Part shown: piece by piece, positions 49,137-62,795 of the stretch | How the letters are laid out: each line of letters starts with the position of its first letter | Numbering within the stretch: the stretch's first letter is position 1 | NCBI RefSeq assembly: GCF_038066715.1 | Contig: NZ_JBBUKT010000015.1 | Span: 1-64,000 of the forward strand | Direction: 5' to 3' | Length of the DNA stretch: 64,000 nt | Origin: Luteolibacter sp. Y139 | GTDB lineage: Bacteria; Verrucomicrobiota; Verrucomicrobiia; Verrucomicrobiales; Akkermansiaceae | The notes under the pieces: model-generated | Told to the model about the DNA's origin: nothing | Databases searched by the model: none | What the model saw: only the letters and a program-made list of their open reading frames with translations | Translations under genes and position numbers: made by a program

Positions 49137-49181
49137 ATCCGGGCTTTCGCGGGTGCCTTTCCGGGTGTTAGATCCCCGGTG

Positions 49182-50084
49182 ATGTCGCGGATGAGAAAGC
49201 TGCGGTTTTTCCTCTTCTTCCGGATGATGACCCGCCGGTGGAGGCAGCATCGTCATGCGGACAATGCGGCGGCGCTGGCCTTTTACGCGCTGATTTCGCT
49301 GCCGCCGCTGCTGCTGATCGGGGTCACCGTGGCGGGCGTGGTGCTCGGCGAGACGGCGGCGCACGGGGAGCTGGAAAGCAAGTTCACCGCGGTGCTCGGG
49401 GTGGACATGGCGCGGATGATCGAGGCCATCTTGCAGAGCGCACGGATCGCTCCGCGGTCCCAGCCGGGAGCCTTCGTGGTCGCGCTGGTGACGCTGCTCT
49501 ACGCAGGCTCGCACGTTCTTTCGAAATTACGCACGACGCTCAATATCGTGAACGAGGCCGCGCCGGCCGATCCCTCGCGGCGGTGGCTCGGCAAGCTGGC
49601 GGCGAGAGCGCTGTGCGCGGGATTGATCCTGATGTTTGGCGTGATGCTGGCTGCGGGCACGGTGCTGGATGCCTTTGCAGCCTTCGTGGCTGCACGGATG
49701 GATGCGCCGTGGCTCTCGAAGCTGAATCTGGTTCAGCGCTTCGGCTGGCTGTCCACCTACACGCTGCTGATGTTCGTCTTCGCGCTGATCATGAAGGTGC
49801 TGCCGCGGCGGCGTCCGCTGTGGCGGCACGCCTTCGCCGGAGCCGCCTTCGCCGCGCTGGTCGCGATCTCACTGAAGGGCGGCCTCGACCTCTACTTCCG
49901 CTACTCGGCGTGGGGATCCTTCATCGGTGGCGGTGTGAACTTCCTGGTCTTCCTGTTTTGGCTCGCGGCTTCGATCCAGGCCTTCCTCGCGGGAGCGGAG
50001 GTGGCGGCCTGGTTCAGCCGGCAAGTGGCGAGGAAGAAGCGGGCTGCCCAGCGGGCTGCGCTCTCTCGCGCGGGCAGCCAGTAG
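49182..50084 (+). CDS. YihY/virulence factor BrkB family membrane protein
   Basis: A 300-residue inner-membrane protein with six hydrophobic segments. Family features are the N-terminal HADNAAALAFYALISLPPLLLI, the central LYAGSHVLSKLRTTLNIV, VLPRRRPLWRHAFAGA, and the C-terminal YSAWGSFIGGGVNFLVFLFWLAASIQAFLAGAEVAAWF. The biochemical role of the family is not settled; RNase BN was an early misassignment. The gene starts 45 bp after the spermidine-synthase-like gene on the same strand. GTG 49179 is an alternative start. Confidence 0.9.
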   Translation: MSRMRKLRFFLFFRMMTRRWRQHRHADNAAALAFYALISLPPLLLIGVTVAGVVLGETAAHGELESKFTAVLGVDMARMIEAILQSARIAPRSQPGAFVVALVTLLYAGSHVLSKLRTTLNIVNEAAPADPSRRWLGKLAARALCAGLILMFGVMLAAGTVLDAFAAFVAARMDAPWLSKLNLVQRFGWLSTYTLLMFVFALIMKVLPRRRPLWRHAFAGAAFAALVAISLKGGLDLYFRYSAWGSFIGGGVNFLVFLFWLAASIQAFLAGAEVAAWFSRQVARKKRAAQRAALSRAGSQ

Positions 50085-50115
50085 ATCAGAAAGGTCTCTA
50101 ACAGACGCCGATAGC

Positions 50116-53100
50116 TCAGTCCCACCGGAGCCGGAAGAAGCCGCCTGCTGCTTCTGACGGAATGGCCAGCGAGCCATCTTCGGAGAGCGTGCTGCCGGTC
50201 ATTCCATGTTCCGGAAGCAAGTCCCAGTTGCCGGAGGTGTCGCGCTTCGCGACCGGATTCCAGGTCAAGAGATCACCGGAGTTTTCCAAATGGATCACAC
50301 CACCGGAGGGAATAGAGAAATCGGAAGCCAGCGGGAGCGTGAGCGTCCAACCGCTTGCCGATTTCGTCAGCACCAGCGGCTGGGATTCGATGGACGGAGT
50401 GGTGACGATCGTTTGTGCCACGACGGTGGGCACGATGGGAGCCGGGAGGAAGGGCTGGAGCTGTGGGATATCGCGGAGATCGATGACCTTGGCCTTGGCC
50501 TGGTCGAAGATGTCGTTTTGCTGGCAGGCGAGTTGTTCGCCATTGAGCTGGATGTCGTAGAAGCCGACCTGCGAACCGCCCTTGATCTGGACGATGAGGT
50601 GCGGTGGCAGGGTGCCCGACAGCTCGTAGAGATAGAGGCTGCTGCCGCCGACGGCGAGGACGTTGCCCGGCAGGATGGCGAGCGAGTAGCCGATGTATTC
50701 GTCTTCATCGGTCGGAGTGCCGGTCCAGAGAAGGGCGCCGGTGGTGGCGGAGTAGCCTTGGACGGCACCGCGGAACTCGGGATCCGGGGCACTTGTCGGC
50801 TTCGAGGAGGCGATGAGCAGGTCTGCGGTCGAGACCATTTCCTCGCCGAAGAAGCGGCCGGCACCGGGCGAAGGCGTGGCGAGCGTGCGCAGCAGCTTGC
50901 CCTTCGGCATGGAGTATTGGAAGACCGCGCCGGAGCGGTTGTTGATCCATGGCGCGGCGATCCACACCGATTGGTCGTTCTCGGTGATGGTCTCGCCGAA
51001 GCTCATCGTTTGACCCTTCGGTGCCTTGATGGTCTTCAGCTTCTTGCCAGTGCGGATGTCGTAGAGGTAGGCGGCACCAGGAGACTTCTTCTCGGTGACG
51101 AATGCCTCCGAGCCGGGCGCGCCGATCCACAGATGATTTCCGCGGGTGTAGAGCTCATCGCCGAAGCGCTGGAGATACTTCTGGCCATTGATGTAGTAGA
51201 AGGGCGTCTTGCGATCGCCGGGACGATAGACGTAGACCCGCGATGGAAGCTCGTTGCCCAATTTGCGCCCGTAGTTTTCCTGGGTGACGGCCAAGTAGTC
51301 GCCAGTGCCTGCCATGGTGAAGGCGAAGGAGTAGGCGCCCATGGTGCCGACCGGCGAGATCTGTGAGAAGGTCGGGTCTTCCGTCCAGGATACGAGGTGG
51401 GCGCCATCAAGGCGGCTCTGATAGGCCCAGCCGTCGCCAACGGGGGCGAAGTTGCGGCCCATCGGCTTCTCGACCCAGCCGATCTCATCGACCGAGATCA
51501 GGTCGTCATCGGTCACGCCTACGGAGACGCGGCGGACCTCGGTCTTGCCATTGCCGGTCAGGGTGATTTCGAGCGCGGCGGTGAGGTCTTCCTCCGGGAT
51601 GTAGTCATTCACGACCGACAAGCCGGAGTCGAAGGTGGTGGTGCCTGCCGGAACCACGACGGGGATGCCCGTGCCAGCCCAGTCCGCGGCCTCATTGCGA
51701 CCGGCGGCGATGACCTGGCAGGTGACGGTGATCGGATAGGGAGCGGCCTCGGTGAAGGAGACCTGCAGGGTGCCATCGTTCTCGCGGATCGAGTCCGGAG
51801 TGACGAGTGACGGTAGGTCGGTGCCCTGCGAGAAGCGTGCGATGCGGAAGCCGTCCCACTCGAAGGAAGTCACGGCCTTCGTTCCCTCCACGGCGAAGGG
51901 CGCAAGCTGGAAGCGCGGTGTCTCCAGCGAGTCCGGCAGCTCCGCGGAGCCCGGCAAGACGGTGGCGGCGAGGTCGCCTAACAGCATGTCGATTTCCACG
52001 CTGGTGCTGCTTTCGAAAATGCGGACCACGGGGTGTCCATCGTAGCGCCGGTCGGTGACGAAGATCCTGCCGCCATCGACATCGATGCGGCCCACGTCGC
52101 CAAAGGAGCCATTCAGCGGGAACAGCTGCTTGAGATCCTGCGGCGTGGTGACATTGCAGAACCACACCTTGTTGTGATACGTCATCACAAGGAGGTTGCC
52201 ATCCGCCGCGAGGGTGGGAGTGCCGCCGTTCCATGGACCGGGGGAGATCAGCAGGCCGAGGTCCGAGCCATCGGTGCGCGAGTACTTCCGCAGGGAACCG
52301 CCGGGCTCCGTCATGATCAGGAAGTCCTGCGTGTAGGCGGCAGTGCTCAGGAAGAGATTGCGCTCCGGCTTGAGCGTCGTGTGGGGCGGGGTGAGCGAAT
52401 ACTCGAAGCTGGCATCGGTGCCGATGCCGGTGACGACGTGAGTGTCGGAGAATGCCTCGGTGCCATTGTCGCCGAAGTCGCTGCTCTTCCGGAAGACCAC
52501 CTGGTCCGTCACGGGATCATAGACGGTGATCGCGGCATACTCGCGCAGCAGGGCGCGGCCGTTGGCATTCCCGAGGAAGCTGAGGCCGGTCTGCGGGACC
52601 GCACGATTCCAGTTCGCCGCTGTCCAATCGCCGGAGTCAAACGGCTTTGTTAGAACGGCGGGCTGAGAGGAAGGAGCGGTGGTCCATTGGTTCGTCTGGA
52701 TCAGGCGGCCACCGGCGAGTGAGACGCCCGTGGCCTTCGCCTCGGAGCCTACCCATGGTGCCACGGGTGACAGCAGGTTGAAGGACGAGCCGCGGATCAC
52801 ACCGGCGAAGCGGGTTGATGTTAGAAGGGCATTCGCGCTCGGTTCGGAGAGCTCGACGAAAAGCGATTCATTGCCCTCGATGACCTGGTCTTGCGTGAGC
52901 GGCACGTCGATGACCTTCGTCGTCTGCCCGGCGGCGATCGTGTAAACTTGGTCGACCGCGGTGAAGTCGGCGGGCGAGGTCGCGGAGCCATTGCTGGTGC
53001 GCAGGCGGAAGGACACGGGACTGGTGTCCGTTTCGGAAAGCGACACCTGCACCTTCAGGATGCCATCCGACTCATGGGCGGGCAGGCATTGGCCGCTGAG

Positions 53101-54249
53101 CTTCGTTTCCGGCAGGCCGCCGGCGGGCATGCGATAGGAGACGGTGCCGGACAGGGCGCTATCGGCCGGCAGGAACCACAGGTCGCCATCCACGAAGGCA
53201 TAGGGACTGGCGACATTCGGTCCGAGGCTGCCCATGAAGAGCGACGCCTGATAGGCAGCGCTCGCAGAGGTGCCGGAGAGGAATAGGACATCGTTGCCAT
53301 ACTTGGAGAGCGTGGCGTGCCAGTTGCCATTCGCCGCGATCACCGGGCGGAGCTGTGCCTGGTAGTAGTTGTCCGCCGTGAAGTCCGACCGCGCCGAGAG
53401 TTGCGACGTGGCGAGATTGTAGTGAAGCAGCGAGGGAAAGGGATACGGGCTGCCGGTGCGGGCGGTGAAGATGAGCGCGCTGCCATTCATCGCGAAGCTG
53501 GCGCCCACCTCCGTGCTATTGAAGTCCTCGGGCAGTGGGAGGGCGGTGAAGGTGCCGGTGGCGAGATTCACATCCACGAGCTTCTGCGGGCCGGACCACA
53601 TCGCGGCGTAGTAAACGACATGATCGCCGGCCATGGCGGCCGTGTTGCCACCGGCGAAGGTCTGTTGGTTCAGGTACGGGAACTCCGCCGGGATGGTCAG
53701 CGTGGGCAGCTCGGCCATCGTCGCGACATTCCACAGGTGCAGTTTTCTCGGGACCGGATCGGAGACGAGCAGGCGGCCATTCGAGAGTCCGCAGAAGGAA
53801 TTGCTGACGCCACCTCCGACGGCGAGATCGGCGCTGCCGACGAGCGTGCCGGTGGACACTTGATACACGATGGCGGTCACGCCGCTATTCGCGCCCGGTG
53901 GATTCGTGTGGGTGACGAAGGAGTCGCAGAACACCGCGAGGTAGTCGCCCTCTGCGGCCATGGCCGAGCCGAAATTCGAGATATCCCGCAGTGAGCCGGG
54001 GCTGCCCGCGATCGGGGCGTCATCGGCGGGGCGAGTCAGCGTGCGGATCACCAGGCCGGTGGTGCGGTCGGCGATTCGGACGGTATTGAAGTCGGTGCGA
54101 TAGGCGACCCAAGTGCCGCCGTGGACCACGTTCACGGCCGGCAGGGATCCCTCTGCCACGGGCTGCGGGATGAAGGGGACCTGTGCCTCCGCCGGAAGGG
54201 CGGCCAGCAAGGAGATCAGCGCGATGGCGCGGAAGTTGAAGAGTGACAT
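50116..54249 (-). CDS. Giant secreted propeller-type protein with Calx-beta domains
   Basis: A 1377-residue exported protein with a signal peptide (MSLFNFRAIALISLLAALPAEA). Three stretches of propeller-like repeats (about 30-380, 480-815 and 925-1240) contain segments such as GDYLAVFCDS, GDYLAVTQENYGRKLG and LYDIRTGKKLKTI, similar to FG-GAP or PQQ-like propellers. They are separated by two Calx-beta-type domains. One is near 390-475 with VSFRLRTSNGSATSPADF and VIEGNESLFVELSEP. The other is near 818-925 with SIRENDGTLQVSFTE. The C-terminus ends AAGGFFRLRWD, similar to the endings of the other giants but without a DPDxDG loop. Function unknown; surface or extracellular location likely. Confidence 0.82.
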   Translation of the reverse strand: MSLFNFRAIALISLLAALPAEAQVPFIPQPVAEGSLPAVNVVHGGTWVAYRTDFNTVRIADRTTGLVIRTLTRPADDAPIAGSPGSLRDISNFGSAMAAEGDYLAVFCDSFVTHTNPPGANSGVTAIVYQVSTGTLVGSADLAVGGGVSNSFCGLSNGRLLVSDPVPRKLHLWNVATMAELPTLTIPAEFPYLNQQTFAGGNTAAMAGDHVVYYAAMWSGPQKLVDVNLATGTFTALPLPEDFNSTEVGASFAMNGSALIFTARTGSPYPFPSLLHYNLATSQLSARSDFTADNYYQAQLRPVIAANGNWHATLSKYGNDVLFLSGTSASAAYQASLFMGSLGPNVASPYAFVDGDLWFLPADSALSGTVSYRMPAGGLPETKLSGQCLPAHESDGILKVQVSLSETDTSPVSFRLRTSNGSATSPADFTAVDQVYTIAAGQTTKVIDVPLTQDQVIEGNESLFVELSEPSANALLTSTRFAGVIRGSSFNLLSPVAPWVGSEAKATGVSLAGGRLIQTNQWTTAPSSQPAVLTKPFDSGDWTAANWNRAVPQTGLSFLGNANGRALLREYAAITVYDPVTDQVVFRKSSDFGDNGTEAFSDTHVVTGIGTDASFEYSLTPPHTTLKPERNLFLSTAAYTQDFLIMTEPGGSLRKYSRTDGSDLGLLISPGPWNGGTPTLAADGNLLVMTYHNKVWFCNVTTPQDLKQLFPLNGSFGDVGRIDVDGGRIFVTDRRYDGHPVVRIFESSTSVEIDMLLGDLAATVLPGSAELPDSLETPRFQLAPFAVEGTKAVTSFEWDGFRIARFSQGTDLPSLVTPDSIRENDGTLQVSFTEAAPYPITVTCQVIAAGRNEAADWAGTGIPVVVPAGTTTFDSGLSVVNDYIPEEDLTAALEITLTGNGKTEVRRVSVGVTDDDLISVDEIGWVEKPMGRNFAPVGDGWAYQSRLDGAHLVSWTEDPTFSQISPVGTMGAYSFAFTMAGTGDYLAVTQENYGRKLGNELPSRVYVYRPGDRKTPFYYINGQKYLQRFGDELYTRGNHLWIGAPGSEAFVTEKKSPGAAYLYDIRTGKKLKTIKAPKGQTMSFGETITENDQSVWIAAPWINNRSGAVFQYSMPKGKLLRTLATPSPGAGRFFGEEMVSTADLLIASSKPTSAPDPEFRGAVQGYSATTGALLWTGTPTDEDEYIGYSLAILPGNVLAVGGSSLYLYELSGTLPPHLIVQIKGGSQVGFYDIQLNGEQLACQQNDIFDQAKAKVIDLRDIPQLQPFLPAPIVPTVVAQTIVTTPSIESQPLVLTKSASGWTLTLPLASDFSIPSGGVIHLENSGDLLTWNPVAKRDTSGNWDLLPEHGMTGSTLSEDGSLAIPSEAAGGFFRLRWD

Positions 54250-54591
54250 GTGAGGCAGAGGGTCTAGGGGCGTGGGAAGTCTGGCGAATCGTTTTCTCGC
54301 CTATCATCATCGGGAAAGCCGATGGTCTCTGTGGCTCCGGGGGGAAGTTGTGTGGAGACTCTCCGTCATCTGACTGAGGTCAACTCGAATGTTGGAAAAG
54401 CAGCACGTTTCGGCGCGTCCTTAGCGCCGTGTTGCTTCCTGCAATCTGCACCGCTCGGGCCGCGATGATTTCGCGTGGGGCGAGGCACCGTGTGACAACT
54501 TCGTGCCAATGCGGGTCCTGTTCATGAAAAGGTTTTCTTCCGCCAGGGGGCCAGTCGATGCGATAGCCTCCCCAAAGGCTCCCGTGGCATC
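54250..54591. other. Gene-free stretch at left edge of the accessory island
   Basis: This 342-bp region lies between the giant minus-strand gene and the plus-strand replication genes. It has no convincing gene. A short stem GGCGC/GCGCC lies at about 54414-54430. The promoter of the giant gene and of the helix-turn-helix gene must be here, but no clear hexamers are visible. If the island integrated by recombination, an attachment site would be expected here; none can be identified by eye. Confidence 0.3.
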
Positions 54592-54825
54592 ATGCTGCCG
54601 ATGGTTGCATCACCTGATAGTCCACAGCTCGTCGGTGCCGAGGAGTGCATCGAGCTCATCTTCCCTTGTGAAAAATCCCGGCCGGGACTGCGGACCTTCC
54701 GCCAATGGCAGGCACAGGGATACATCCCGGTCCACAGGATCGGGCGGCGCACTTACTTCGATCCGGTGCAGGTCCGCGCCGCGATCGAGCGGCGCTTCCG
54801 CATCGCTCCCGCCGAGGTTCGCTAA
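54592..54825 (+). CDS. Small helix-turn-helix (excisionase/AlpA-like) protein
   Basis: A 77-residue protein from ATG 54592, or 74 residues from ATG 54601. The core RTFRQWQAQGYIPVHRIGRRTYFDPVQVRAAIERRF has the winged-helix layout of MerR-like excisionases and phage-island activators: a helix with a Trp-Gln-Gly turn, then GRRTYF leading to a final helix. Such proteins typically regulate or assist excision and early gene expression in integrated elements. It stands 25 bp upstream of the helicase gene on the same strand. It could equally be a replication initiator subunit. Confidence 0.6.
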   Translation: MLPMVASPDSPQLVGAEECIELIFPCEKSRPGLRTFRQWQAQGYIPVHRIGRRTYFDPVQVRAAIERRFRIAPAEVR

Positions 54826-54850
54826 TCCACTCATCCTGCCGACGGAAATC

Positions 54851-56209
54851 ATGCCAGATTCCCCTCAACCGATCACGCTCTCGTCCTTTGGCGAGGAGCC
54901 GGATTACTTCGAGCCCTACTCGTCACGCTATCTTGTCCGGAATGCCACGGGGCGCTGGCTGCCGCTGCTGGAGTCCGGCTACAAGCGCCACCTGCGAGCC
55001 CGCGGCTTGAAATCGAAGCCGGACGAAGGAGACGCGCTGTCGGACATCGATGCCGCCATCCTCGATGTACAGGACCACCGCGACATCTCGCACTACGGTC
55101 CCATCTGCGGGAAGAACGCGGGGCTGTTAGAAGCGAATGGCCAGCGCATCCTGGTCACCGAGGACCTGCGGTTGCCCGAGCCCGCGGCGGGATCGTGGGC
55201 GAACCTGCGGGCGGTGCTGGAGGGCCTGCTGCAAAGGGGCGAGGAGGAAGCGACCGGACGGCTCCAAGTAGCGACCTTCCACGGATGGATACGGAGCAGC
55301 GTGAAGGCCCTGCGAGCGGGCGAGCTCCAGCAGCAGCAGGCGCTCGCGCTATGCGGGCCGCCGCGCTGCGGGAAGTCCTTCCTGCAAGGCATCATCACCC
55401 ACATGCTCGGGGGCAGGGGAGCGAAGGCGGAGCGCTACTTCTCCGGCAGGACGCCCTTCAATGCCGACCTCTATGCGGCGGAGCACCTGATGCTGGAGGA
55501 TGAGCACTGCTCCACCCGCATCGAGAACCGGCTGAAGCTCGGCTCCTCGCTCAAGCAGCACACCGTCTCCACCTACCTCGGCAGCCTGCATGCGAAGGGG
55601 CGGAATGCGGTGAACCTGCCCGGCTGGTGGCGCGTGTCCATCACGCTGAATGACGATCCCGAGGCGATGATGGTGCTGCCACCGCTGGACCAGCACATCG
55701 CGGACAAGATCATCATCCTGCGTGCCTCGGTCTTCCAGTGGCCGATGCCGATGGAGAGCACCTCGGATCGCACGGGCTTCCATGCGAGGATTGTCAGCGA
55801 GATTCCCGCTTACCTGCATTGGCTGCTGCATGAGTGGCAGGCACCGCGGGAAGTGATCGATCCGCATCGCTACAATGTGGCGACGTTTCATCATCCCGAG
55901 TTGGCGGAGGCGCTGCATTGCTTCTCACCGGAGGCGGAGCTGCATGAGCTGCTCCAGCTCGCGTATGCGGATGCCGCGCTGCATCGCAGGTCAGTGGAGG
56001 CGACGGCGGCGGAGATCGAGGCGGCGGTGAGGTATCGCGATCCGGCACGTGCCGATCGTCTCTTCAGTTTCCGGAATGCGTGCAGCACTTACTTGGGAAG
56101 GCTGGTGAAGAAGTATCCGAACCAACTCGAAGCGGTGCGTGACAAGACGCACCGCTGGTGGGTCATCGATCATGGATTCCTCTCCAGCCAGCCTCCGGTG
56201 ACGCGGTGA
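54851..56209 (+). CDS. Phage/plasmid-type primase-helicase (SF3/DUF5906-like P-loop ATPase)
   Basis: A 452-residue replicative ATPase of mobile elements. Walker A is GPPRCGKS (residues 169-176) and a Walker B-like segment is EHLMLEDEHCS (about 209-219). A sensor region, WRVSITLNDDPEAMMVLPPLD, precedes IADKIIILRAS. This order is that of the superfamily 3-like helicase domain in phage and satellite primases. The N-terminal 140 residues are unassigned, and the C-terminal part (about 330-452) is helical with a winged-helix-like end. No primase active site is seen here; it is encoded separately by the next gene. A perfect 10-bp hairpin and a repeated 25-nt element overlap its 3' end. Confidence 0.75.
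   Translation: MPDSPQPITLSSFGEEPDYFEPYSSRYLVRNATGRWLPLLESGYKRHLRARGLKSKPDEGDALSDIDAAILDVQDHRDISHYGPICGKNAGLLEANGQRILVTEDLRLPEPAAGSWANLRAVLEGLLQRGEEEATGRLQVATFHGWIRSSVKALRAGELQQQQALALCGPPRCGKSFLQGIITHMLGGRGAKAERYFSGRTPFNADLYAAEHLMLEDEHCSTRIENRLKLGSSLKQHTVSTYLGSLHAKGRNAVNLPGWWRVSITLNDDPEAMMVLPPLDQHIADKIIILRASVFQWPMPMESTSDRTGFHARIVSEIPAYLHWLLHEWQAPREVIDPHRYNVATFHHPELAEALHCFSPEAELHELLQLAYADAALHRRSVEATAAEIEAAVRYRDPARADRLFSFRNACSTYLGRLVKKYPNQLEAVRDKTHRWWVIDHGFLSSQPPVTR
56131..56156. other. 10-bp perfect palindrome inside the 3' end of the helicase gene
   Basis: AGCGGTGCGT (56131-56140) pairs exactly with ACGCACCGCT (56147-56156) around a 6-nt loop. It lies within coding sequence, 43 bp before the 25-nt repeated element, so the two may form one structured site such as an origin or control region for the primase gene. 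Confidence 0.5.
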
Positions 56210-56223
56210 CACGCGAAAGTCAT
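56199..56223 (+). repeat. 25-nt element, copy 1 (inverted copy at 59044-59068)
   Basis: This element covers the helicase stop codon and the following 14 bp. It is repeated in inverted orientation 2.8 kb downstream with one mismatch in 25. Internally it holds two imperfect direct repeats of TGAC(G/A)CG. Function unknown. Confidence 0.7.
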
Positions 56224-56243
56224 ATTCTCAGGAAATAGATAAA

Positions 56244-57203
56244 ATGGCCCTCGATGTGGCGCGGCTGGAGAAGGTCCGGCACAGTCCTGCTGGCAAGATC
56301 ACCGCCCGCTGTCCGGCCTGTGCGGAAGACGGCGGCGATCGGACCGGCAATCACCTGGTGATCTTCCCCGATGAGAAATTCGCCTGCGCCGCCCGCGCGG
56401 GAGACGGGGATCACCGGAAGAGGATCATGGCGCTGGTGGGCATTCGTTCCGAAGTCACCTTCGACGCGGAGCAACGCCGCCAATGGTGGAAAGAGAAGCA
56501 TGCGACGCGGCAGCGGAGCATCGGGAAGCAGCGTCTTGCGAACTCCGCGCGGCATCGACGGCAGGAACTCATCCGACAATACGGGTGGCTTCGGGAAGAG
56601 GTGTGGGAGGATTCACCGCAACGGATCGACAGCGATCTCGTGGCGATGGACCCCGCCCATTTCCTCGGCAGCCTCTTCCTGCCGGATGATCTCCTCTGGA
56701 CCGGTGAAGTTCATCAAAGCGGCAGTGACTGGCATGCGGAGCGCTGGAAGACCTGCTCGGAGTGGGCTGCCACCAGCACACGCATCGGCCCCATGACCAC
56801 GCCCGCCGTGTGGATGCCGGGAACGATTTCCCGTGCTTCTAACAACGTGCTCAGGTCTCCGTATGTGGTCCTCGATTTCGATGGCTTCGATGGGATCAAG
56901 CCCATCACACCTGACGAGCTTTCGAGACACGTCTTGGACTCACTCGCGATCATCCGCTGGCTCCGCGAAGCCATGGCCTGGCAACTCGCCGCCATCCTCT
57001 GGACCGGAGGAAAGAGCCTCCACGCGTGGTTTCACACGCCACCGCCTGAAGTGCTGAAGAGCCTGCTCCCCGTGGCTCAATCCCTAGGCATGGACGCCGG
57101 CCTTATCGGACGGCCGGAGCATCCGTGCCGGCTATCGGGGCAGGTTCACAAAGGGAGCGGAAAGGTGTCGCGGGTGATGTGGGTCCAGGCCCGAACCCAG
57201 TAG
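56244..57203 (+). CDS. Archaeo-eukaryotic-type primase with N-terminal zinc-finger-like region
   Basis: A 319-residue protein with the layout of a mobile-element primase. An N-terminal CPAC...H...C cluster (residues about 23-49, including GDRTGNHLVIFPDEKFACAA) resembles the CHC2-type zinc finger of DNA primases. The central catalytic region has VLDFDGFDG (acidic D-x-D) and LWTGGKSLHAWF (the S-x-H motif), followed by LSGQVHKGSG. These fit the AEP primase active site that synthesises RNA or DNA primers. It lies 34 bp after the helicase. The last codons and TAG stop lie within a REP-type repeat, so the original C-terminus may have been longer. Confidence 0.7.
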   Translation: MALDVARLEKVRHSPAGKITARCPACAEDGGDRTGNHLVIFPDEKFACAARAGDGDHRKRIMALVGIRSEVTFDAEQRRQWWKEKHATRQRSIGKQRLANSARHRRQELIRQYGWLREEVWEDSPQRIDSDLVAMDPAHFLGSLFLPDDLLWTGEVHQSGSDWHAERWKTCSEWAATSTRIGPMTTPAVWMPGTISRASNNVLRSPYVVLDFDGFDGIKPITPDELSRHVLDSLAIIRWLREAMAWQLAAILWTGGKSLHAWFHTPPPEVLKSLLPVAQSLGMDAGLIGRPEHPCRLSGQVHKGSGKVSRVMWVQARTQ

Positions 57204-57266
57204 TCGAAGACCCGGACTGCGGCAGCCTGCTGCCGCTCAATGCCAGCAGCCCTGCTGCGGGGAAGG
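57195..57266 (-). repeat. REP-type element A
   Basis: Read on the minus strand this matches element C (58893-58970) almost base for base: CTTCCC(C/T)GCAGCAGGGCTG, GAGCGGCAGCAG, CTGCCGCAGTCCGGGTCT and CGACTACTGG. It can fold by pairing of its GC-rich halves. It overlaps the 3' end of the primase gene and supplies its stop codon. Confidence 0.7.
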
Positions 57267-57329
57267 ACGGGGTAGATGAGCTCCATCAGAAAGCCAGCCC
57301 AATGGACATGCCGCATCGGCTTGTGTCTG

Positions 57330-58005
57330 CTAAGCGCGTCCCGGCTGACTGACGAATTGCTTCAGGGAGTAGTATGTGGGCGTAAGCCTTCCCATACCCC
57401 CGTAAGCTGCCGTGTATTTTCCCTCAAAAGTTTCGAAACACCCGGTTCGCGAAAGTCTGTTCATGAAGTCATCAAGCTGATCCGCCGGAATAGAAAGCTC
57501 CCGTGTCAGCGTCTTCTCCAACGCATCCCAAAACTTCTGAGCCAAGGTGTAGTCATTGTCGCCGGGTGCTCGCTCGATGGTTGATGAATACCCATCCAAA
57601 ATCGAAAGCGCCCTCAGTTCACGGAAGCTCAGCTCATCGAGAATGGAAAGCAGGTCTTCATAAGCATCCGCATCGCACGAGGCATCGGTCACCGTTTGCC
57701 AGCAAGTTCGCGAACAGGACAATCTTCTCGCGCCGCCTTGTGTTTCTAGCAGCGTTCGCAGTGATGAAATACTTGTGGAGGAACTCCTCGCTACCAATGA
57801 CGTCGTTCGATAGTTGGATCTGATTGTTGGAGAGAGCCTCGAAGAATACGGCTGTCCGTTCCTTTCGGATGGCATCGACTTTTCCGGTGATCAGGACATC
57901 AACCGCTCCTCCGATTCCGGCGGGGAACAATTGAAGCAATGCTCGCACGAGTTCATGGTCGGCATACCATGCCAAGGCGGTCTCTGATTTGGTGGGCTTT
58001 TCCAT
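57330..58005 (-). pseudogene. Conserved helical protein gene with a frameshift
   Basis: Two reading frames together encode one protein of about 225 residues. The first part (ATG 58003-58005) runs from MEKPTKSETALAWYADHEL through ERTAVFFEALSNNQIQLS to AARNTRRREKIVLFANLLANG. The second part, beginning in another frame near 57690-57700, continues DASCDADAYEDLLSILDELS to the stop codon at 57330. One extra nucleotide near 57690-57700 would explain the break. The intact family, with its NTRRREK-type segment after a helical region and a GIGGAVDVL hydrophobic stretch, is widespread in bacteria but of unknown function. It may be a real pseudogene, a programmed shift or a sequencing error. Confidence 0.65.
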
Positions 58006-58041
58006 GAGGCCGGATTGGAACCGGGGAGTGAGGTCGTCGTC

Positions 58042-58050
58042 TGCTATAAT
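58042..58050 (+). promoter_or_regulatory. Extended -10 promoter-like site
   Basis: TGCTATAAT contains a perfect TATAAT (58045-58050) with the extended TGn motif. No convincing -35 lies upstream. It points towards the RAYT gene, 191 bp downstream, with REP element B in between. Confidence 0.4.
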
Positions 58051-58076
58051 CGGCCGGACGATTTCGACGCATCCGG

Positions 58077-58146
58077 CAGGGTGCTTCCCCGCAACAGGGC
58101 TGCTGCACTGCAGTCCGGGTCTCCGACTGCTGGATCAGGCAGTCCA
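58077..58146 (+). repeat. REP-type element B
   Basis: It shares GGGTGCTTCCC(C/T)GCA, CAGGGCTGCTG and CAGTCCGGGTCTCCGACT with element C but lacks the middle segment of about 23 nt. It is followed by GCTGGATCAGGCAGTCC. It lies in the spacer upstream of the RAYT gene in the same orientation as C. Confidence 0.65.
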
Positions 58147-58240
58147 TATGTCCGGTCCGCTCGTTTGATTTCGATCTTAGTAACTCCCCATTGGTGTCTA
58201 TTCACTTGAACATCTATGGGACGGGAGGCAAAGTGCTTCA

Positions 58241-58825
58241 GTGATCCCCCAGTCATCCCTTCCTGACGAAGAGACCTGCAAAGGCAGCCGCGATTGGCCT
58301 CATGCTCCACCTCATCGTCTCCAGTCCGCCGGGGTCTATTTCCTTACTGCCCGAACTTCTGAGCGTCGGCACTTGCTAGCAGAAGACTCCGCCAAGGATT
58401 GGTTCCAAGACACCTTGTTGAAGTTGGCCGAGGAGAAAGGCTGGAGGCTCGAAGCATGGTGCATCCTCTCCAATCACTATCACCTCGTCGCACATAGCCC
58501 GAAGGACGGCGGCGCTTCCTTGGGGCAGCTAATCCAGCAGCTCCACGGTCTAACAACCAAGGAGCTGAATCGACGCGATGGCATGGAGGGAAGAACGAGG
58601 CTTTGGCAAAACTTCAGGGAGACGTTGCTCGTGGAACAAGCCTCCTACCTGGCCCGGCTCCACTATGTGCATCAGAATGCGGTGCATCACCGGCTTGTGA
58701 AGACCGGTTCCGAGTGGAAATGGTGTAGCGCCTTGGCATTCAAGAAAGCCGCTACCCCGGCATGGGTGAAGACGGTGGCTAGTTTTAGATATGACCGGAT
58801 TGCGGAGTTGGATGAGGATGGGTGA
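58241..58825 (+). CDS. REP-associated tyrosine transposase (RAYT, Y1/HUH family)
   Basis: A 194-residue single-strand-specific nuclease/transposase of the IS200/IS605-related TnpA-REP group. The HUH motif is HYH at residues 79-81 in CILSNHYHLVAH. The YVHQNAVHHRLV segment, normally Y(I/V)HxNPV, is at about 144-155. LWQNFRETLLVE lies between them. RAYTs are thought to mobilise or maintain REP sequences. Related REP-type repeats lie 95 bp upstream and 68 bp downstream, with a third about 1 kb upstream in the opposite orientation. The GTG start is preceded by GGGAGG 13 nt upstream. Confidence 0.9.
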   Translation: MIPQSSLPDEETCKGSRDWPHAPPHRLQSAGVYFLTARTSERRHLLAEDSAKDWFQDTLLKLAEEKGWRLEAWCILSNHYHLVAHSPKDGGASLGQLIQQLHGLTTKELNRRDGMEGRTRLWQNFRETLLVEQASYLARLHYVHQNAVHHRLVKTGSEWKWCSALAFKKAATPAWVKTVASFRYDRIAELDEDG

Positions 58826-58892
58826 TGGGTTTGAATGGTTAGACGGGGCTGAGGGGGCGGCTTGGGCGGGCAGTTTGGCGAGGGGCAGCCAC

Positions 58893-58970
58893 ACGGGTGC
58901 TTCCCTGCAGCAGGGCTGCTGGCTTCGAGCGGCAGCAGGGCTGCCGCAGTCCGGGTCTCCGACTACTGGT
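58893..58970 (+). repeat. REP-type element C
   Basis: The longest of the three related repeats, with two GC-rich imperfect palindromes (CAGCAGGGCTGCTG and GGCAGCAGGGCTGCC) followed by the CAGTCCGGGTCTCCGACT tail. It lies 67 bp after the RAYT stop codon. Elements B and C bracket the transposase in the same orientation. Confidence 0.7.
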
Positions 58971-59043
58971 GTCGGGGTCTCTGACGACTTGGGCGACGCG
59001 GCCAAGTGTTTGAGCCACCCGCGGAGAAAAATTCCCCGCAAAC

Positions 59044-59068
59044 ATGACTTTCGCGCGTCACCGCGTCA
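59044..59068 (-). repeat. 25-nt element, copy 2 (inverted copy of 56199-56223)
   Basis: The reverse complement of this segment equals 56199-56223 except for one base (G for A at the thirteenth position). It lies in a non-coding spacer between the RAYT/REP cluster and the glycosyltransferase gene. It could mark the right end of a transposed segment. Confidence 0.7.
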
Positions 59069-59126
59069 TCGCAGGCCGGTTCCAGCGCCTTTGCGATGCC
59101 TCAGGGCTTCGCTGGCCTGACTCACC

Positions 59127-59888
59127 TTATTCCTTCCAATACTCCTCCACCCACGGTGCGGGGAGCACGCGGTGGTGGATCTTGCCGGTGGTGACGCCGT
59201 TGACGGCGTCGGGCGGATCGGGCTTGCCGTGGAAGACGAGGAACTTGGCGCCCTTCGGTTTCTTGGGTGGGACGAAGAGATTGAGCGGGAAGGGCGGCCG
59301 GACGTTGAACTTGAAGCTGCGGACCCATTCTTCCGGCCACCAGTAGCGCTCCTTCATGGCGTAGGTGAGGAAGGCCTGCTCGGTCTGGAAGATGGAGCGG
59401 TCCTGGGCGCGGTCCATCTCGCGGAGGAAGGTATCGTAGATGTACTGCGACTTGCCGGCCTCGAAGCGGAAGATGGAGGAGTTCCCGATCTCGGGGCGCT
59501 TGTTCAGGATCTGTTTCCGGCGCTCCCACCAGTTGTGGATGATGCAGTTCTTGCCCGGCTGGTAGTCGAAGAGGCAGTCGATGTCATCGAGGATGACGAG
59601 GTCGAGATCGAGGAAGAGGGTGGGGCCTTCGAGGTTGGCGAAGCCGTCGCGGGTCATCACCAGCTTGAGGAAGACATTTGGCCACTTGGCCTGGGTGACG
59701 CCGGGGTTTTCCGGGAAGGGCAGGGTCTCGATGCCTTCGATCAGGCCTTCGGTATTATCTGTGAGGCACACGAAGCGGAAGGGCCGCTTGAGGTGGCGGC
59801 CGATCGAGCGGTAGAGGATATTGACGTAACGGGACGGGTATCGCGTCCCCCACTTCATGCAGATGATATTGACGGGTGCTCCGGGCAT
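59127..59888 (-). CDS. Glycosyltransferase (nucleotide-diphospho-sugar transferase fold)
   Basis: A 253-residue cytoplasmic enzyme from ATG 59886-59888. VNIICMKWGTRYPSRYVNILY begins a Rossmann-like GT-A fold. The metal-binding D-x-D lies in TLFLDLDLVILDDID (about 110-125). Later signatures are NSSIFRFEAG, FQTEQAFLTYAM and the terminal histidines HGKPDPPDA and HHRVLP. The pattern resembles glycosyltransferase family 8-like proteins of capsule or lipopolysaccharide synthesis. The acceptor is unknown. Upstream in-frame residues (to 59987) are Ser/Pro-rich and unlikely to be translated. Confidence 0.82.
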   Translation of the reverse strand: MPGAPVNIICMKWGTRYPSRYVNILYRSIGRHLKRPFRFVCLTDNTEGLIEGIETLPFPENPGVTQAKWPNVFLKLVMTRDGFANLEGPTLFLDLDLVILDDIDCLFDYQPGKNCIIHNWWERRKQILNKRPEIGNSSIFRFEAGKSQYIYDTFLREMDRAQDRSIFQTEQAFLTYAMKERYWWPEEWVRSFKFNVRPPFPLNLFVPPKKPKGAKFLVFHGKPDPPDAVNGVTTGKIHHRVLPAPWVEEYWKE

Positions 59889-59970
59889 CGGGTCGTGTGG
59901 CGGCCGGGAGCTTGGCGGCCGGGCGGGGCGGGGGAAAGGCGAATCCGACGGGGCCCTCGAAGAGCAGGAA

Positions 59971-60000
59971 CCGCGAATGGACGCCAATGGACGCGAATGG
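59971..60000. repeat. Three tandem copies of a 10-bp unit
   Basis: CCGCGAATGG, ACGCCAATGG and ACGCGAATGG follow each other directly in the spacer between glycosyltransferase and SDR genes. I recall similar CGCGAATGGA arrays as common dispersed repeats in related genomes; this is memory, not a search. Confidence 0.6.
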
Positions 60001-60074
60001 ATCCAGAAAGGCGGGGATTCCGGTTGGGTTTGCTGAGACCGGTAGCCTCGGTGCTTGGTCGCCGCTGGGAATTG

Positions 60075-60137
60075 ACCACGGATGTCACGGATGGTTTTGA
60101 GGATGCCTTGATCCGTGGCATCCGCGTTATCCGTGGT
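60075..60137. repeat. Inverted-repeat element built from ACGGAT words
   Basis: ACCACGGAT (60075-60083) pairs with ATCCGTGGT (60129-60137). Further ACGGATG and ATCCGTGG/CATCCG words lie inside, giving a long imperfect hairpin. It sits 13 bp beyond the 3' end of the SDR gene and may act as a terminator or be a dispersed repeat. Confidence 0.5.
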
Positions 60138-60149
60138 TCATTCCAGGGC

Positions 60150-60854
60150 TCACGCCTGCTGGTCGCTGCTGCGCATGAGGATGTCGCCGATTTCGACGTG
60201 GGTAGGCGCTTCCAGGATGGAGAGGATAGAGTAGGCGACGTCCTCGGGCTTGAGCATGGTCATGCTTTCGCGGGTCTTGCGGAGGGAGTCCTCGCGGCCG
60301 CGGAAGTATTGGTCGAGGAGCGGGGTATCGACGAAGCCGGGGGAGACGCAGGCGACCTGGACGGGGGAGCTGATGGCCTTGAGCTCATTGCGCAGGGCAT
60401 CGGTCACGGCGCGGACGGCGAATTTCGTGGGGGCGTAGAAGCCACCGGTGGGCGGGACGCGATGGCCGCTCATGGAGGAGACATTGACGATGCGGCCGCC
60501 CTGCTTCGGGAAGTGGCGGAGGGAGAGCTGGCAGCAAAGCGCGAGCGCCATGACATTGACGCGCCACATTTCCTCCCAGTCCGCCGGGTTGCCATCGGTG
60601 ATGCGGGCGAGGTAGGCGATGCCGGCGCAGTTCACGAGCGCATTGATGCGGCCGAGGTGGCTGAAGACCTCCAGCACTTCCTCGCGTTTCGTCAGGTCGG
60701 CCTGGATCGGGGCGACGCCCTGCGGCAGGGAATTCGGCCGGCGGGTGACGCCGAGCACATTCGCCCCGCGGTCCAACAGCAATTCGCACAATGCCCGCCC
60801 AATGCCACTGGACGCTCCGGTGACGAGGACGATGGGGCCATCTGGGCTGCTCAC
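60150..60854 (-). CDS. Short-chain dehydrogenase/reductase
   Basis: A 234-residue NAD(P)-dependent oxidoreductase with the classical SDR layout. The cofactor motif is TGASSGIG (about 12-19), the structural motif is NCAGIA (about 74-79), the catalytic Ser is in VNVSSMSG and the catalytic pair is YAPTK (about 142-146). CVSPGFVDTPL follows. The GTG start at 60852-60854 gives a normal length. The substrate cannot be deduced. It is divergent from trpS. Confidence 0.92.
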   Translation of the reverse strand: MSSPDGPIVLVTGASSGIGRALCELLLDRGANVLGVTRRPNSLPQGVAPIQADLTKREEVLEVFSHLGRINALVNCAGIAYLARITDGNPADWEEMWRVNVMALALCCQLSLRHFPKQGGRIVNVSSMSGHRVPPTGGFYAPTKFAVRAVTDALRNELKAISSPVQVACVSPGFVDTPLLDQYFRGREDSLRKTRESMTMLKPEDVAYSILSILEAPTHVEIGDILMRSSDQQA

Positions 60855-61025
60855 GCGGGAAAGGTGGCGGGCGCTGGCTGCGGGTCAATTCGAGACATGG
60901 GTCACCAGCAAGTTAGATGCCTTTTCCGGCCGGTATTTGGCGGGAGATCCCCGGAAAACCGGGCCGCATGCAAGAAGTCCGGGTGCCCTTGACCACGGGG
61001 GCCGGTCTTGTCCATGTTCCCGGCC

Positions 61026-61994
61026 ATGCGCATTTTGACCGGGCTGCAACCCAGCGGAAAGATCCACGTCGGCAACTACTTCGGGGCGATGGAGCCGGCC
61101 GTGCGCCTGCAAGATCAGGGCGAGGCTTTCTATTTCATCGCGAACTACCACGCGATGACGACGGTCAAGAGCCCCGCGGACCTGCGCGCCTACACCCGCG
61201 AACTCGCTATCGATTTCCTGGCCTGTGGCCTCGATCCCGAGCGTGCGGTGTTTTTCCTGCAGAGCGCGGTGCCGGAGGTGAATGAGCTCGCGTGGATCCT
61301 CTCGACGGTGTGCCCGGTCAGCCAGTTGGAGAAGGCGACCTCGTACAAGGACAAGCTCGCGCACGGCTTTTCACCGAGCCACGGGCTCTTCGCTTATCCG
61401 GTGCTGATGGCCGCGGACATCCTGCTCTATGATTCGAACCAGGTGCCGGTCGGCAAGGACCAGAAGCAGCATCTGGAGATCACGCGCGACCTCGCGGGCA
61501 AGATCAATGAGGCCTTCGGCGAAGGCACGCTGGTGGTGCCGGAGCCGATCATTCGTGAAGCGACGGCGATCGTGCCCGGCCTCGATGGGCAGAAGATGAG
61601 CAAGAGCTACGGCAACACGCTGCCACTCTTCGCCGATCCGGCGGAGGTGAAGAAGCTCATCATGAAGAAGCTGGTGACGGATGCGACACCGCTGGAGGAT
61701 CCCAAGCCGAAGGAGAACTCCACGCTGCTCGCGCTGTATCGCCTGATGGCGAGCGATGCGGATGTGGCGACGATGGAGGCTGACTTCGATCGCGGCGGCG
61801 TTGGCTATGGTGACTTCAAGAAGCGTCTGTTAGATGCGTATCTCGAACGCTTCGAGCCGATGCGCGCGCGCCGTGAGGAATTGCAGGCCGATCCGGGATA
61901 CGTCGATGAAGTGCTTGCGAAGGGTGCGGAGAAGGCGCGTGCCGCGGCGGCGCCGGTGATCGACCGGGTGAGGCGTGCGGTGGGCTTGGCGTGA
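61026..61994 (+). CDS. trpS: Tryptophanyl-tRNA synthetase
   Basis: A class Ic aminoacyl-tRNA synthetase charging tRNA-Trp. The 322-residue length is usual for bacterial TrpRS. The N-terminal MRILTGLQPSGKIHVGNYFG contains the HIGH-equivalent motif (HVGN). KMSKS lies in GLDGQKMSKSYGNTLP (about 188-203). GKDQKQHLEITRDLA and YPVLMAADILLYDS complete the Trp-adenylate pocket. I start at ATG 61026 because the six extra residues from 61008 are absent from the family. Confidence 0.97.
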   Translation: MRILTGLQPSGKIHVGNYFGAMEPAVRLQDQGEAFYFIANYHAMTTVKSPADLRAYTRELAIDFLACGLDPERAVFFLQSAVPEVNELAWILSTVCPVSQLEKATSYKDKLAHGFSPSHGLFAYPVLMAADILLYDSNQVPVGKDQKQHLEITRDLAGKINEAFGEGTLVVPEPIIREATAIVPGLDGQKMSKSYGNTLPLFADPAEVKKLIMKKLVTDATPLEDPKPKENSTLLALYRLMASDADVATMEADFDRGGVGYGDFKKRLLDAYLERFEPMRARREELQADPGYVDEVLAKGAEKARAAAAPVIDRVRRAVGLA

Positions 61995-62070
61995 GCTGAA
62001 GCGAGAGGCGGTGAATGAGGCTCGTGTGACACGGCGCTCATGAGTAGGTGTTTCGCGCCGATGAGGCGCG

Positions 62071-62424
62071 ATGCTCCTTGAAATGAGTGCGGAACTTGAT
62101 GCCTACAAAAAGTTTGTCGACGGGTTGGTAAATTACAAGGGGTCGGTGACCTACATCATCGACGCCTTCGAAACGAAGCGGTGGAATCATCCTCCGTCTG
62201 CCATCTTGAACGACCTTCCCGATGAGGTGAGGGAAGCCGTGGTCTCCGTGATGCGGAAGGCCGCAGAGACGGCGATTCACGATGTGCTGGTGCAGATCGT
62301 TGATGGAGAATATGCACTCGAACGCGACGGGGTCCGGTTGGCGTGCCGTCCTTTCGATGGGGCGCTGCACGATGATTTTATCGCGCGAGTTGACGGCATT
62401 CCATGGCCGGATGAGCACTCGTGA
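62071..62424 (+). CDS. Small conserved protein (possibly DUF6547-like)
   Basis: A 117-residue soluble protein. It has a helical N-terminal half (AYKKFVDGLVNYKGSVTYIIDAFE), the segment LNDLPDEVREAVVSVMRKAAETAIHDVLV, and a short beta-rich end (CRPFDGALHDDFIARVDG). I recall this layout from an uncharacterised family of small cytoplasmic proteins but cannot confirm the assignment. GAGGCG precedes ATG 62071; ATG 62083 is an alternative. It follows trpS by 76 bp. Confidence 0.6.
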   Translation: MLLEMSAELDAYKKFVDGLVNYKGSVTYIIDAFETKRWNHPPSAILNDLPDEVREAVVSVMRKAAETAIHDVLVQIVDGEYALERDGVRLACRPFDGALHDDFIARVDGIPWPDEHS

Positions 62425-62795
62425 CCGGGGTAAATGAATGGGGTGGGGGCGGAATCGGCGAGCCACCGGCGAATGGAGACGCAGGACTTTTTGAAATGAA
62501 ATGAGGGCTTGGGTGGCCTTTTTAAAAGGAACGGAGGGGTTTCGGAGGCTTCCGGAGGGGGTGAAATTTTTGCTTTGCCAAGCCGCCGGGACGGGCGCAT
62601 CTTCCCTTTGTCCGATGGACGTGGGCAGCCGCAGGATTTGCAGCCGCCGCCGGGATTGAAAGCCTTGTCGCGATGGTTTCGCACAGGACACGGCATTCCC
62701 CAAACCCGGTCCCTTCGTCCCCCTTACTTATTCCCGTACCCTAACAAGGTCATGGCCGGATTGCGGCCGTCTCCTCCGATTTTTCCAAGCGATCC
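62425..62795. other. Long leader/intergenic region upstream of yebC
   Basis: This 371-bp stretch contains no convincing gene. It has G-rich runs (62525-62565) and a near-palindrome CCTTTTTAAAAGG (about 62517-62529). A promoter candidate lies at 62575-62603 and a CTAACA word near 62741. If that promoter is used, yebC has an untranslated leader of roughly 185 nt, long enough to hold regulatory structure. Confidence 0.35.
62575..62603 (+). promoter_or_regulatory. Possible promoter of yebC
   Basis: TTGCCA (62575-62580) and CATCTT (62598-62603) are 17 bp apart, preceded by an A/T-rich stretch AAATTTTTGCTT. The arrangement resembles the TTGCCA-N17 site upstream of tRNA-Lys (22324-22352). Match to consensus is moderate. 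Confidence 0.35.

Follow-up and report, generated by a model that had tools for sequence, protein, structure and literature searches.

Three genes at positions 54592–57203 of a 64,000-nt stretch of the Luteolibacter sp. Y139 genome (contig NZ_JBBUKT010000015.1, positions 1 to 64,000; hereafter the window) quite probably make up the DNA-replication module of a small mobile element integrated in the chromosome, in which a helicase and a probable origin have been exchanged together and no integrase is now recognisable. They encode a helix-turn-helix (HTH) protein, a superfamily 3 (SF3) helicase and a primase of the archaeo-eukaryotic primase (AEP) type. The original prediction held that three adjacent plus-strand genes encode a small excisionase-like DNA-binding protein, a P-loop primase-helicase-like ATPase (GPPRCGKS) and a separate primase with a zinc-finger-like start, and reading of the open reading frames (ORFs) in the window confirmed all three. 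They are intact, on the plus strand and at the positions claimed beforehand (54592–54825, 54851–56209 and 56244–57203). Single-sequence searches of the three proteins gave weak or no Pfam and PHROG matches. The identity of both enzymes is settled because alignments with relatives, unlike the single sequences, match known families. Relative to their nearest relatives the genes have a dN/dS of about 0.2–0.3 (about 0.28 for the HTH gene and 0.22 for the primase gene versus the cassette of genome G009), an average over the lineage since divergence from G009, and the module genes are therefore real genes. Rfam returned no match in positions 48000–62500 of the window.

The middle gene runs from an ATG at 54851 to a stop codon at 56209 on the plus strand and encodes 452 aa. 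Walker A (GPPRCGKS), Walker B (LMLEDE) and motif C (ITLND) are conserved in the alignment of relatives. DUF5906 (PF19263) is matched by 14 of the 16 ATPase relatives, with a best value of 1.9e-10, and the window protein itself misses E 0.1. The family profile retrieved the primase-helicase of phage NrS-1 (6k9e, E=1.9e-5). The predicted structure (pLDDT 88.6) has its nearest solved folds in the C-terminal region (CTR) of NrS-1 (Z 19.9) and in the Rep protein of the Staphylococcus aureus pathogenicity island SaPI5 (Z 16.9), with further matches to PrimPol of African swine fever virus (ASFV), pox D5/E5, Rep of adeno-associated virus (AAV) and papillomavirus E1. The defining features of SF3, namely Walker A, an acidic Walker B, motif C and the SF3 fold, are all found in the window ATPase. 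As modelled, the product of 54851–56209 is an SF3 helicase of D5 type, with a winged-helix-like domain at its C-terminus (about residues 375–440). The helicase would be the initiator. By analogy with SaPI Rep, NrS-1, D5 and E1, and given the predicted fold, its C-terminal winged helix would bind the TGACGCGG iteron-like arms described below, melt the DNA and load as a hexamer. The window genome has a second relative of this enzyme, in which a BT4734-like N-terminal domain is fused to a DUF5906 helicase (G000:C2:770512-771558; L002, L017); the genes adjoining it look defence-like by eye.

The third gene (56244–57203, plus strand) encodes a 319-aa primase with an N-terminal zinc ribbon and an AEP catalytic domain, as indicated by motifs, profile and predicted fold. 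Residues Cys23/Cys26/Cys48, D211/D213, H260, D284 and R296 are invariant in the alignment, and the AEP motifs VVLDFDG, TGGKSLH and D284 are invariant or nearly so among relatives. The family profile aligned with the AEP domain of cyanophage S-2L PrimPol (6zp9, E=0.0057). The model has a mean pLDDT of 78, lower in the zinc ribbon, and its residues 132–319 adopt an AEP fold close to PriS (Z 11.1), RepB' (Z 10.5) and S-2L PrimPol (Z 10.3). The hhhDhD, sxH and hD motifs that mark the AEP superfamily are thus found on a predicted AEP fold, and the models contain both the P-loop ATPase (SF3) and AEP folds named in the original prediction as a check. The protein would make primers for a host polymerase, an activity suggested by its fold and motifs. 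The invariant R296 may correspond to the conserved arginine motif of the PrimPol-PV1 supergroup. The zinc ribbon, about 70 aa long, also starts other proteins, alone or fused (e.g. L082:146-2269), and one zinc-ribbon-bearing protein has an SF3 helicase in the same chain.

The first gene (54592–54825, plus strand) encodes a 77-aa HTH_17/excisionase-like DNA-binding protein, with a weak Pfam HTH_17 match and PHROG matches to excisionases and terminase small subunits. It shares 71% identity with the HTH protein of the G009 cassette (dN 0.19, dS 0.68) and 49% with that of G013. Proteins of this family suggest that it might control the operon or excision. It also matches weakly the MADS component mad1 of PADLOC (5e-5), and restriction-like genes are seen by eye near some relatives of the module, which would suit a part in an anti-phage defence system. 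We consider this highly improbable, since the mad1 match is that of a generic HTH, no other component was found, and the helicase and primase have no PADLOC match.

A pair of iteron-like inverted repeats, 33–49 nt long, accompanies the genes. The left arm, CCGGTGACGCGGTGACACGCGAAAGTCAT, is a candidate half origin on the plus strand; GGTGACGCGGTGACACGCGAAAGTCAT at 56191–56223 overlaps the helicase stop codon. The right arm is its inverted copy at 59044–59076 on the minus strand, within 50 nt of position 59123, where similarity to a congener resumes. The two arms are 91% identical over 33 nt, and their 24-nt core (TGACGCGGTGAC) occurs only twice in the 7.1-Mb genome and 0 times in shuffles of the window. 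The ATPase of G036, one of the two nearest to that of the window (47%), has as partners a Toprim primase, unrelated to that of the window, and another HTH protein. A palindrome of the 15-mer TGACGCGGTGACGCG lies 21 nt 3' of its stop codon, these being the sole exact copies in the G036 genome, and the left window arm matches this 15-mer with one mismatch. Similar inverted pairs are seen at the ends of other ATPase genes, each arm being made of short tandem repeats with a TGAC/TGTC or GTGG core, and in G039 the primase gene is immediately flanked by arms with three TGAC repeats. Inverted repeats scoring at least 13 were found at 40% of helicase 3' ends versus 9% of control genes. Comparison of these sequences suggests that the inverted arms are probably a replication origin. 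A plain hairpin downstream of all element genes was rejected as the common feature (no overall excess, p=0.96); just the tandem-arm inverted design stood out.

Comparison with close relatives shows that the HTH protein and primase stay in place while the helicase is swapped. The window primase is nearest to that of G009, from the same genus (63% identity; sister, support 88/85), and the middle gene of the G009 cassette, between HTH and primase, encodes an AAA_25 helicase unrelated to the SF3 helicase of the window. G039 has two primases that are 87% identical, one adjoining a D5-type SF3 helicase and the other an AAA_25 helicase, and their repeats differ. A DUF3987 helicase is present in the cassettes of G002 and G152. 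Parsimony on the primase tree gives six changes of helicase type, about two of which are forced by well-supported branches. The primase parts that accompany the SF3 helicase vary in turn, being AEP, Toprim or fused BT4734-type. A CCTAGG-type palindrome core was detected upstream of the primase in 7 out of 10 AAA_25 cassettes and in 0 out of 7 others (p=0.006), so that the cis-repeat seems to be tied to the helicase and not to the primase. Helicase and repeat type would then move together, SF3 with TGAC- or GTGG-type arms and AAA_25 often with CCTAGG-centred palindromes.

In the genus, two conserved genes flank the segment that contains the module. The left one encodes a membrane protein of YihY type by eye (49191–50084, plus strand; orthologues in 11 of 18 genus genomes) and the right one a predicted glycosyltransferase (59127–59888, minus strand; orthologues in 17 of 18). 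In an alignment with G008, similarity stops at 50086 and picks up again at 59123. Six congeners have both flanks (G008, G011, G012, G009, G015 and G004), and the interval between them holds other genes or almost nothing; the three-gene module and a giant gene at 50116–54249 are both absent from it in all six. Across the order, ATPase homologues were detected in 49 out of 387 genomes and primase homologues in 57 out of 387, a count that includes zinc-ribbon-only matches, in both cases at other loci. By these comparisons the module is accessory and not core chromosome, because congeners hold other DNA between the flanks and homologues are sporadic and lie elsewhere. An origin as core chromosome was rejected by the comparison of flanks, in keeping with the prediction of a mobile-element replication core. 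The empty-site comparison proposed with it bore out the absence of the module between the flanks and did not define the exact empty site or the ends of the insertion.

Intact genes under purifying selection would also agree with domestication by the host, for instance for gap-filling or repair priming, and AEP enzymes such as PrimPol and LigD can serve repair (PMC5862659). We regard this as very unlikely in view of the sporadic distribution, the lack of a conserved locus and the presence of origin-like repeats and a partner helicase of replicative type. Mobility is indicated for many relatives of the module, which adjoin a tyrosine or serine recombinase within the 20 kb of neighbourhood examined. 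In G162, an integrase is followed by the helicase (ATPase) and then the primase, in the order of the window. The original prediction saw no integrase here, and recombinase profiles likewise retrieved neither a tyrosine nor a serine recombinase in the window. No flanking direct repeat that might mark an att site was found in the window, and the ORF list and Pfam scan identified no terminase-like gene between the flanks. A plasmid or isolate-phage origin was rejected, as neither enzyme had a tblastn match among 72,556 plasmids and 50,697 phages. IMG/VR contigs carry relatives of the enzymes, and phage contigs carry related modules in both split and fused form.

Three-gene cassettes lacking an integrase are present at different loci in the window, G009, G015, G003 and, twice, G265. 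These may be remnants or may be mobile in trans. One explanation is a minimal mobile cassette of about 3 kb (HTH, helicase, primase and origin) that moves via host or helper recombination with no recombinase of its own. The six cassettes of one design at different loci would fit this, as would a related free-standing, non-coding unit of G265 that bears palindromes like those of the cassettes, and the palindrome clusters of G009 and G003, which lack the cassette genes. However, no boundaries, target-site duplications or excision data speak for it, some relatives have integrases, and the stand-alone palindromes could be common dispersed repeats, some of which inserted into cassettes, so that we think this explanation unlikely.

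The CCTAGG palindrome was itself rejected as a unique signature of the cassette, given the clusters or units away from it in G009, G003 and G265; the window genome has none. Dispersed palindromes of ~42 nt, with tandem GTCC-type arms around CCTAGG, often form inverted pairs bounding roughly 100–400 nt of non-coding DNA (L165:7291-7779, L149:10626-11078, L150:10241-10736, L148:9385-9567, L162:5641-12904 and L163:7700-8484). The inside of the stand-alone unit in G265 (L165) is homologous to the helicase–primase intergenic unit of one cassette of the same genome (L150). This stand-alone unit could be a miniature inverted-repeat transposable element (MITE) or a derivative consisting of the origin alone.

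Between the primase and the right arm lies a block (57190–58976) composed of a REP-associated tyrosine transposase (RAYT) gene and three repeats resembling repetitive extragenic palindromic (REP) sequences. The first repeat overlaps the primase stop codon (57190–57268, minus strand), and its 77 nt are 91% identical to an inverted copy at 58900–58976. Repeat searches of the window retrieved the other two on the plus strand, at 58081–58133 and 58897–58976. The RAYT gene (58241–58825, plus strand) encodes 194 aa and matches NCBIfam REP_Tyr_transpos (1.9e-24, above cut-off) and Pfam Y1_Tnp (1.9e-7). To judge from this layout and from G039, the wide spacing of the arms would be due to later insertion of the block, which would have parted the primase from the right arm. 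Within the block, two overlapping out-of-frame ORFs on the minus strand (57330–58005) are probably a broken cargo gene; their G+C is 0.53 versus about 0.64 around them, and they have no Pfam or PADLOC match. On the other side of the module, the gene at 50116–54249 encodes a 1377-aa Calx-beta repeat protein absent here in congeners. In G039, a gene adjoining the replication module (L027:6475-7089) contains an 18-nt in-frame repeat array with many ELDKGA copies.

A decayed prophage or the remnant of an integrative island, with integrase and cargo deleted and genes that now replicate nothing, is possible, if somewhat doubtful. The lack of a nearby integrase, the broken ORF and REP/RAYT insertion inside the segment, the spacing of the repeat arms and the occurrence of related split and fused modules on phage contigs are all consistent with decay. 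On the other hand, the three genes are intact and have been under purifying selection since the divergence from G009, taken as an average over the lineage, and the same integrase-less design recurs in G009, G015, G003 and twice in G265, which would be unexpected for random debris.

Several points weigh against our preferred reading, in which the module is that of a mobile element with an exchanged helicase and origin. Neither an integrase nor an att repeat, circular junction or exact empty site was found for it, and the window arms are 2.8 kb apart. The primase tree is weakly resolved, and helicase labels are not clustered on it beyond shuffled labels. A single origin of the SF3 partnership was not rejected by the approximately unbiased (AU) test (p=0.121; the test used four SF3 rows and predates the reassignment of one G039 helicase). 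In favour of the reading, inverted TG[AT]C pairs no more than 200 nt from the stop were found at 10 out of 32 ATPase genes versus 5 out of 465 control genes; the motif was picked after seeing the data, although it was the best of 64 cores. When 20 additional loci of more distant relationship were screened, one had the exact TGAC motif and three the strict tandem-arm design, the latter versus 25 out of 400 controls, which is not significant. On these sequence counts, the general repeat architecture is better supported than the exact sequence.

If the helicase and origin are exchanged as proposed, replication initiation is rebuilt from parts: the same primase functions, or is at least retained, next to unrelated helicases, and a change of helicase brings a change in the presumed origin repeats. 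This permits a direct test of which protein reads the origin of a mobile element and of whether the primase accepts a foreign helicase. To our knowledge, almost no plasmids or satellites of Verrucomicrobiota have been characterised, and the predicted origins would be useful for vector building. Rather speculatively, the Verrucomicrobiales might harbour a class of minimal, integrase-less replication cassettes in which interchangeable units of helicase plus origin (SF3 with TGAC/GTGG arms, AAA_25 with CCTAGG palindromes, DUF3987) join a fixed HTH protein and zinc-ribbon AEP primase. Such cassettes would spread with no recombinase of their own and leave non-coding, origin-like copies at other chromosomal sites.

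Among known systems, the module resembles the SaPIs and other phage-inducible chromosomal islands (PICIs; pri, rep, ori) in its separate genes for a primase and a D5/SF3-type helicase, in the repeats beside the helicase gene and in the closeness of the helicase model to SaPI5 Rep. In SaPIs the origin is made up of iterons in opposite orientation close to rep. In contrast to these islands, the window has the helicase before the primase, its primase is a zinc-ribbon AEP, and no integrase, terminase or phage-interference gene was found. The module is not classifiable as a PICI because no integrase, att or packaging gene was found. The original prediction that phages and satellites usually fuse primase and helicase was too strong, as SaPI helicase and primase are usually separate, with the primase replaced in related staphylococcal cassette chromosome (SCC) elements (PMC7145576, PMC10061031), and phage contigs show both arrangements. 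Nor does a split or helicase-first order mark something undescribed, given the SaPIs and the fact that helicase-first is the usual gene order in the zinc-ribbon AEP primase clade. Absent from the original prediction were the pair of inverted iteron-like arms, the swapped helicase and the REP/RAYT block.

The primase-polymerase of phage NrS-1, the closest solved relative of the helicase by both profile and fold, also has an AEP partner; there both enzymes are in one chain, whereas the window has two proteins. The AAA_25 sister cassettes pair an AAA_25 helicase, which we take to be RepA-like, with an AEP primase, as in RepA-RepB'-RepC of RSF1010 (IncQ), and RepB' is among the folds closest to the primase. 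The window helicase, in contrast, is of the SF3 type, and neither enzyme was found on any plasmid of the collection searched. The PrimPol-PV1 supergroup is similar in its AEP motifs, HTH and helicase neighbours, integrated elements and helicase substitution. According to that work (PMC5862659), chromosomal bacterial AEP primases sit on integrated elements with interchangeable, unrelated helicases; the proteins described there are mostly fused, and DUF5906 is not among the helicases named in the part used here. The split layout itself is not new. Beyond the known systems, the module and its relatives offer a clade of zinc-ribbon AEPs in which the helicase gene comes first, a central helicase that has been replaced from one close relative to another, and repeats whose type follows that of the helicase.

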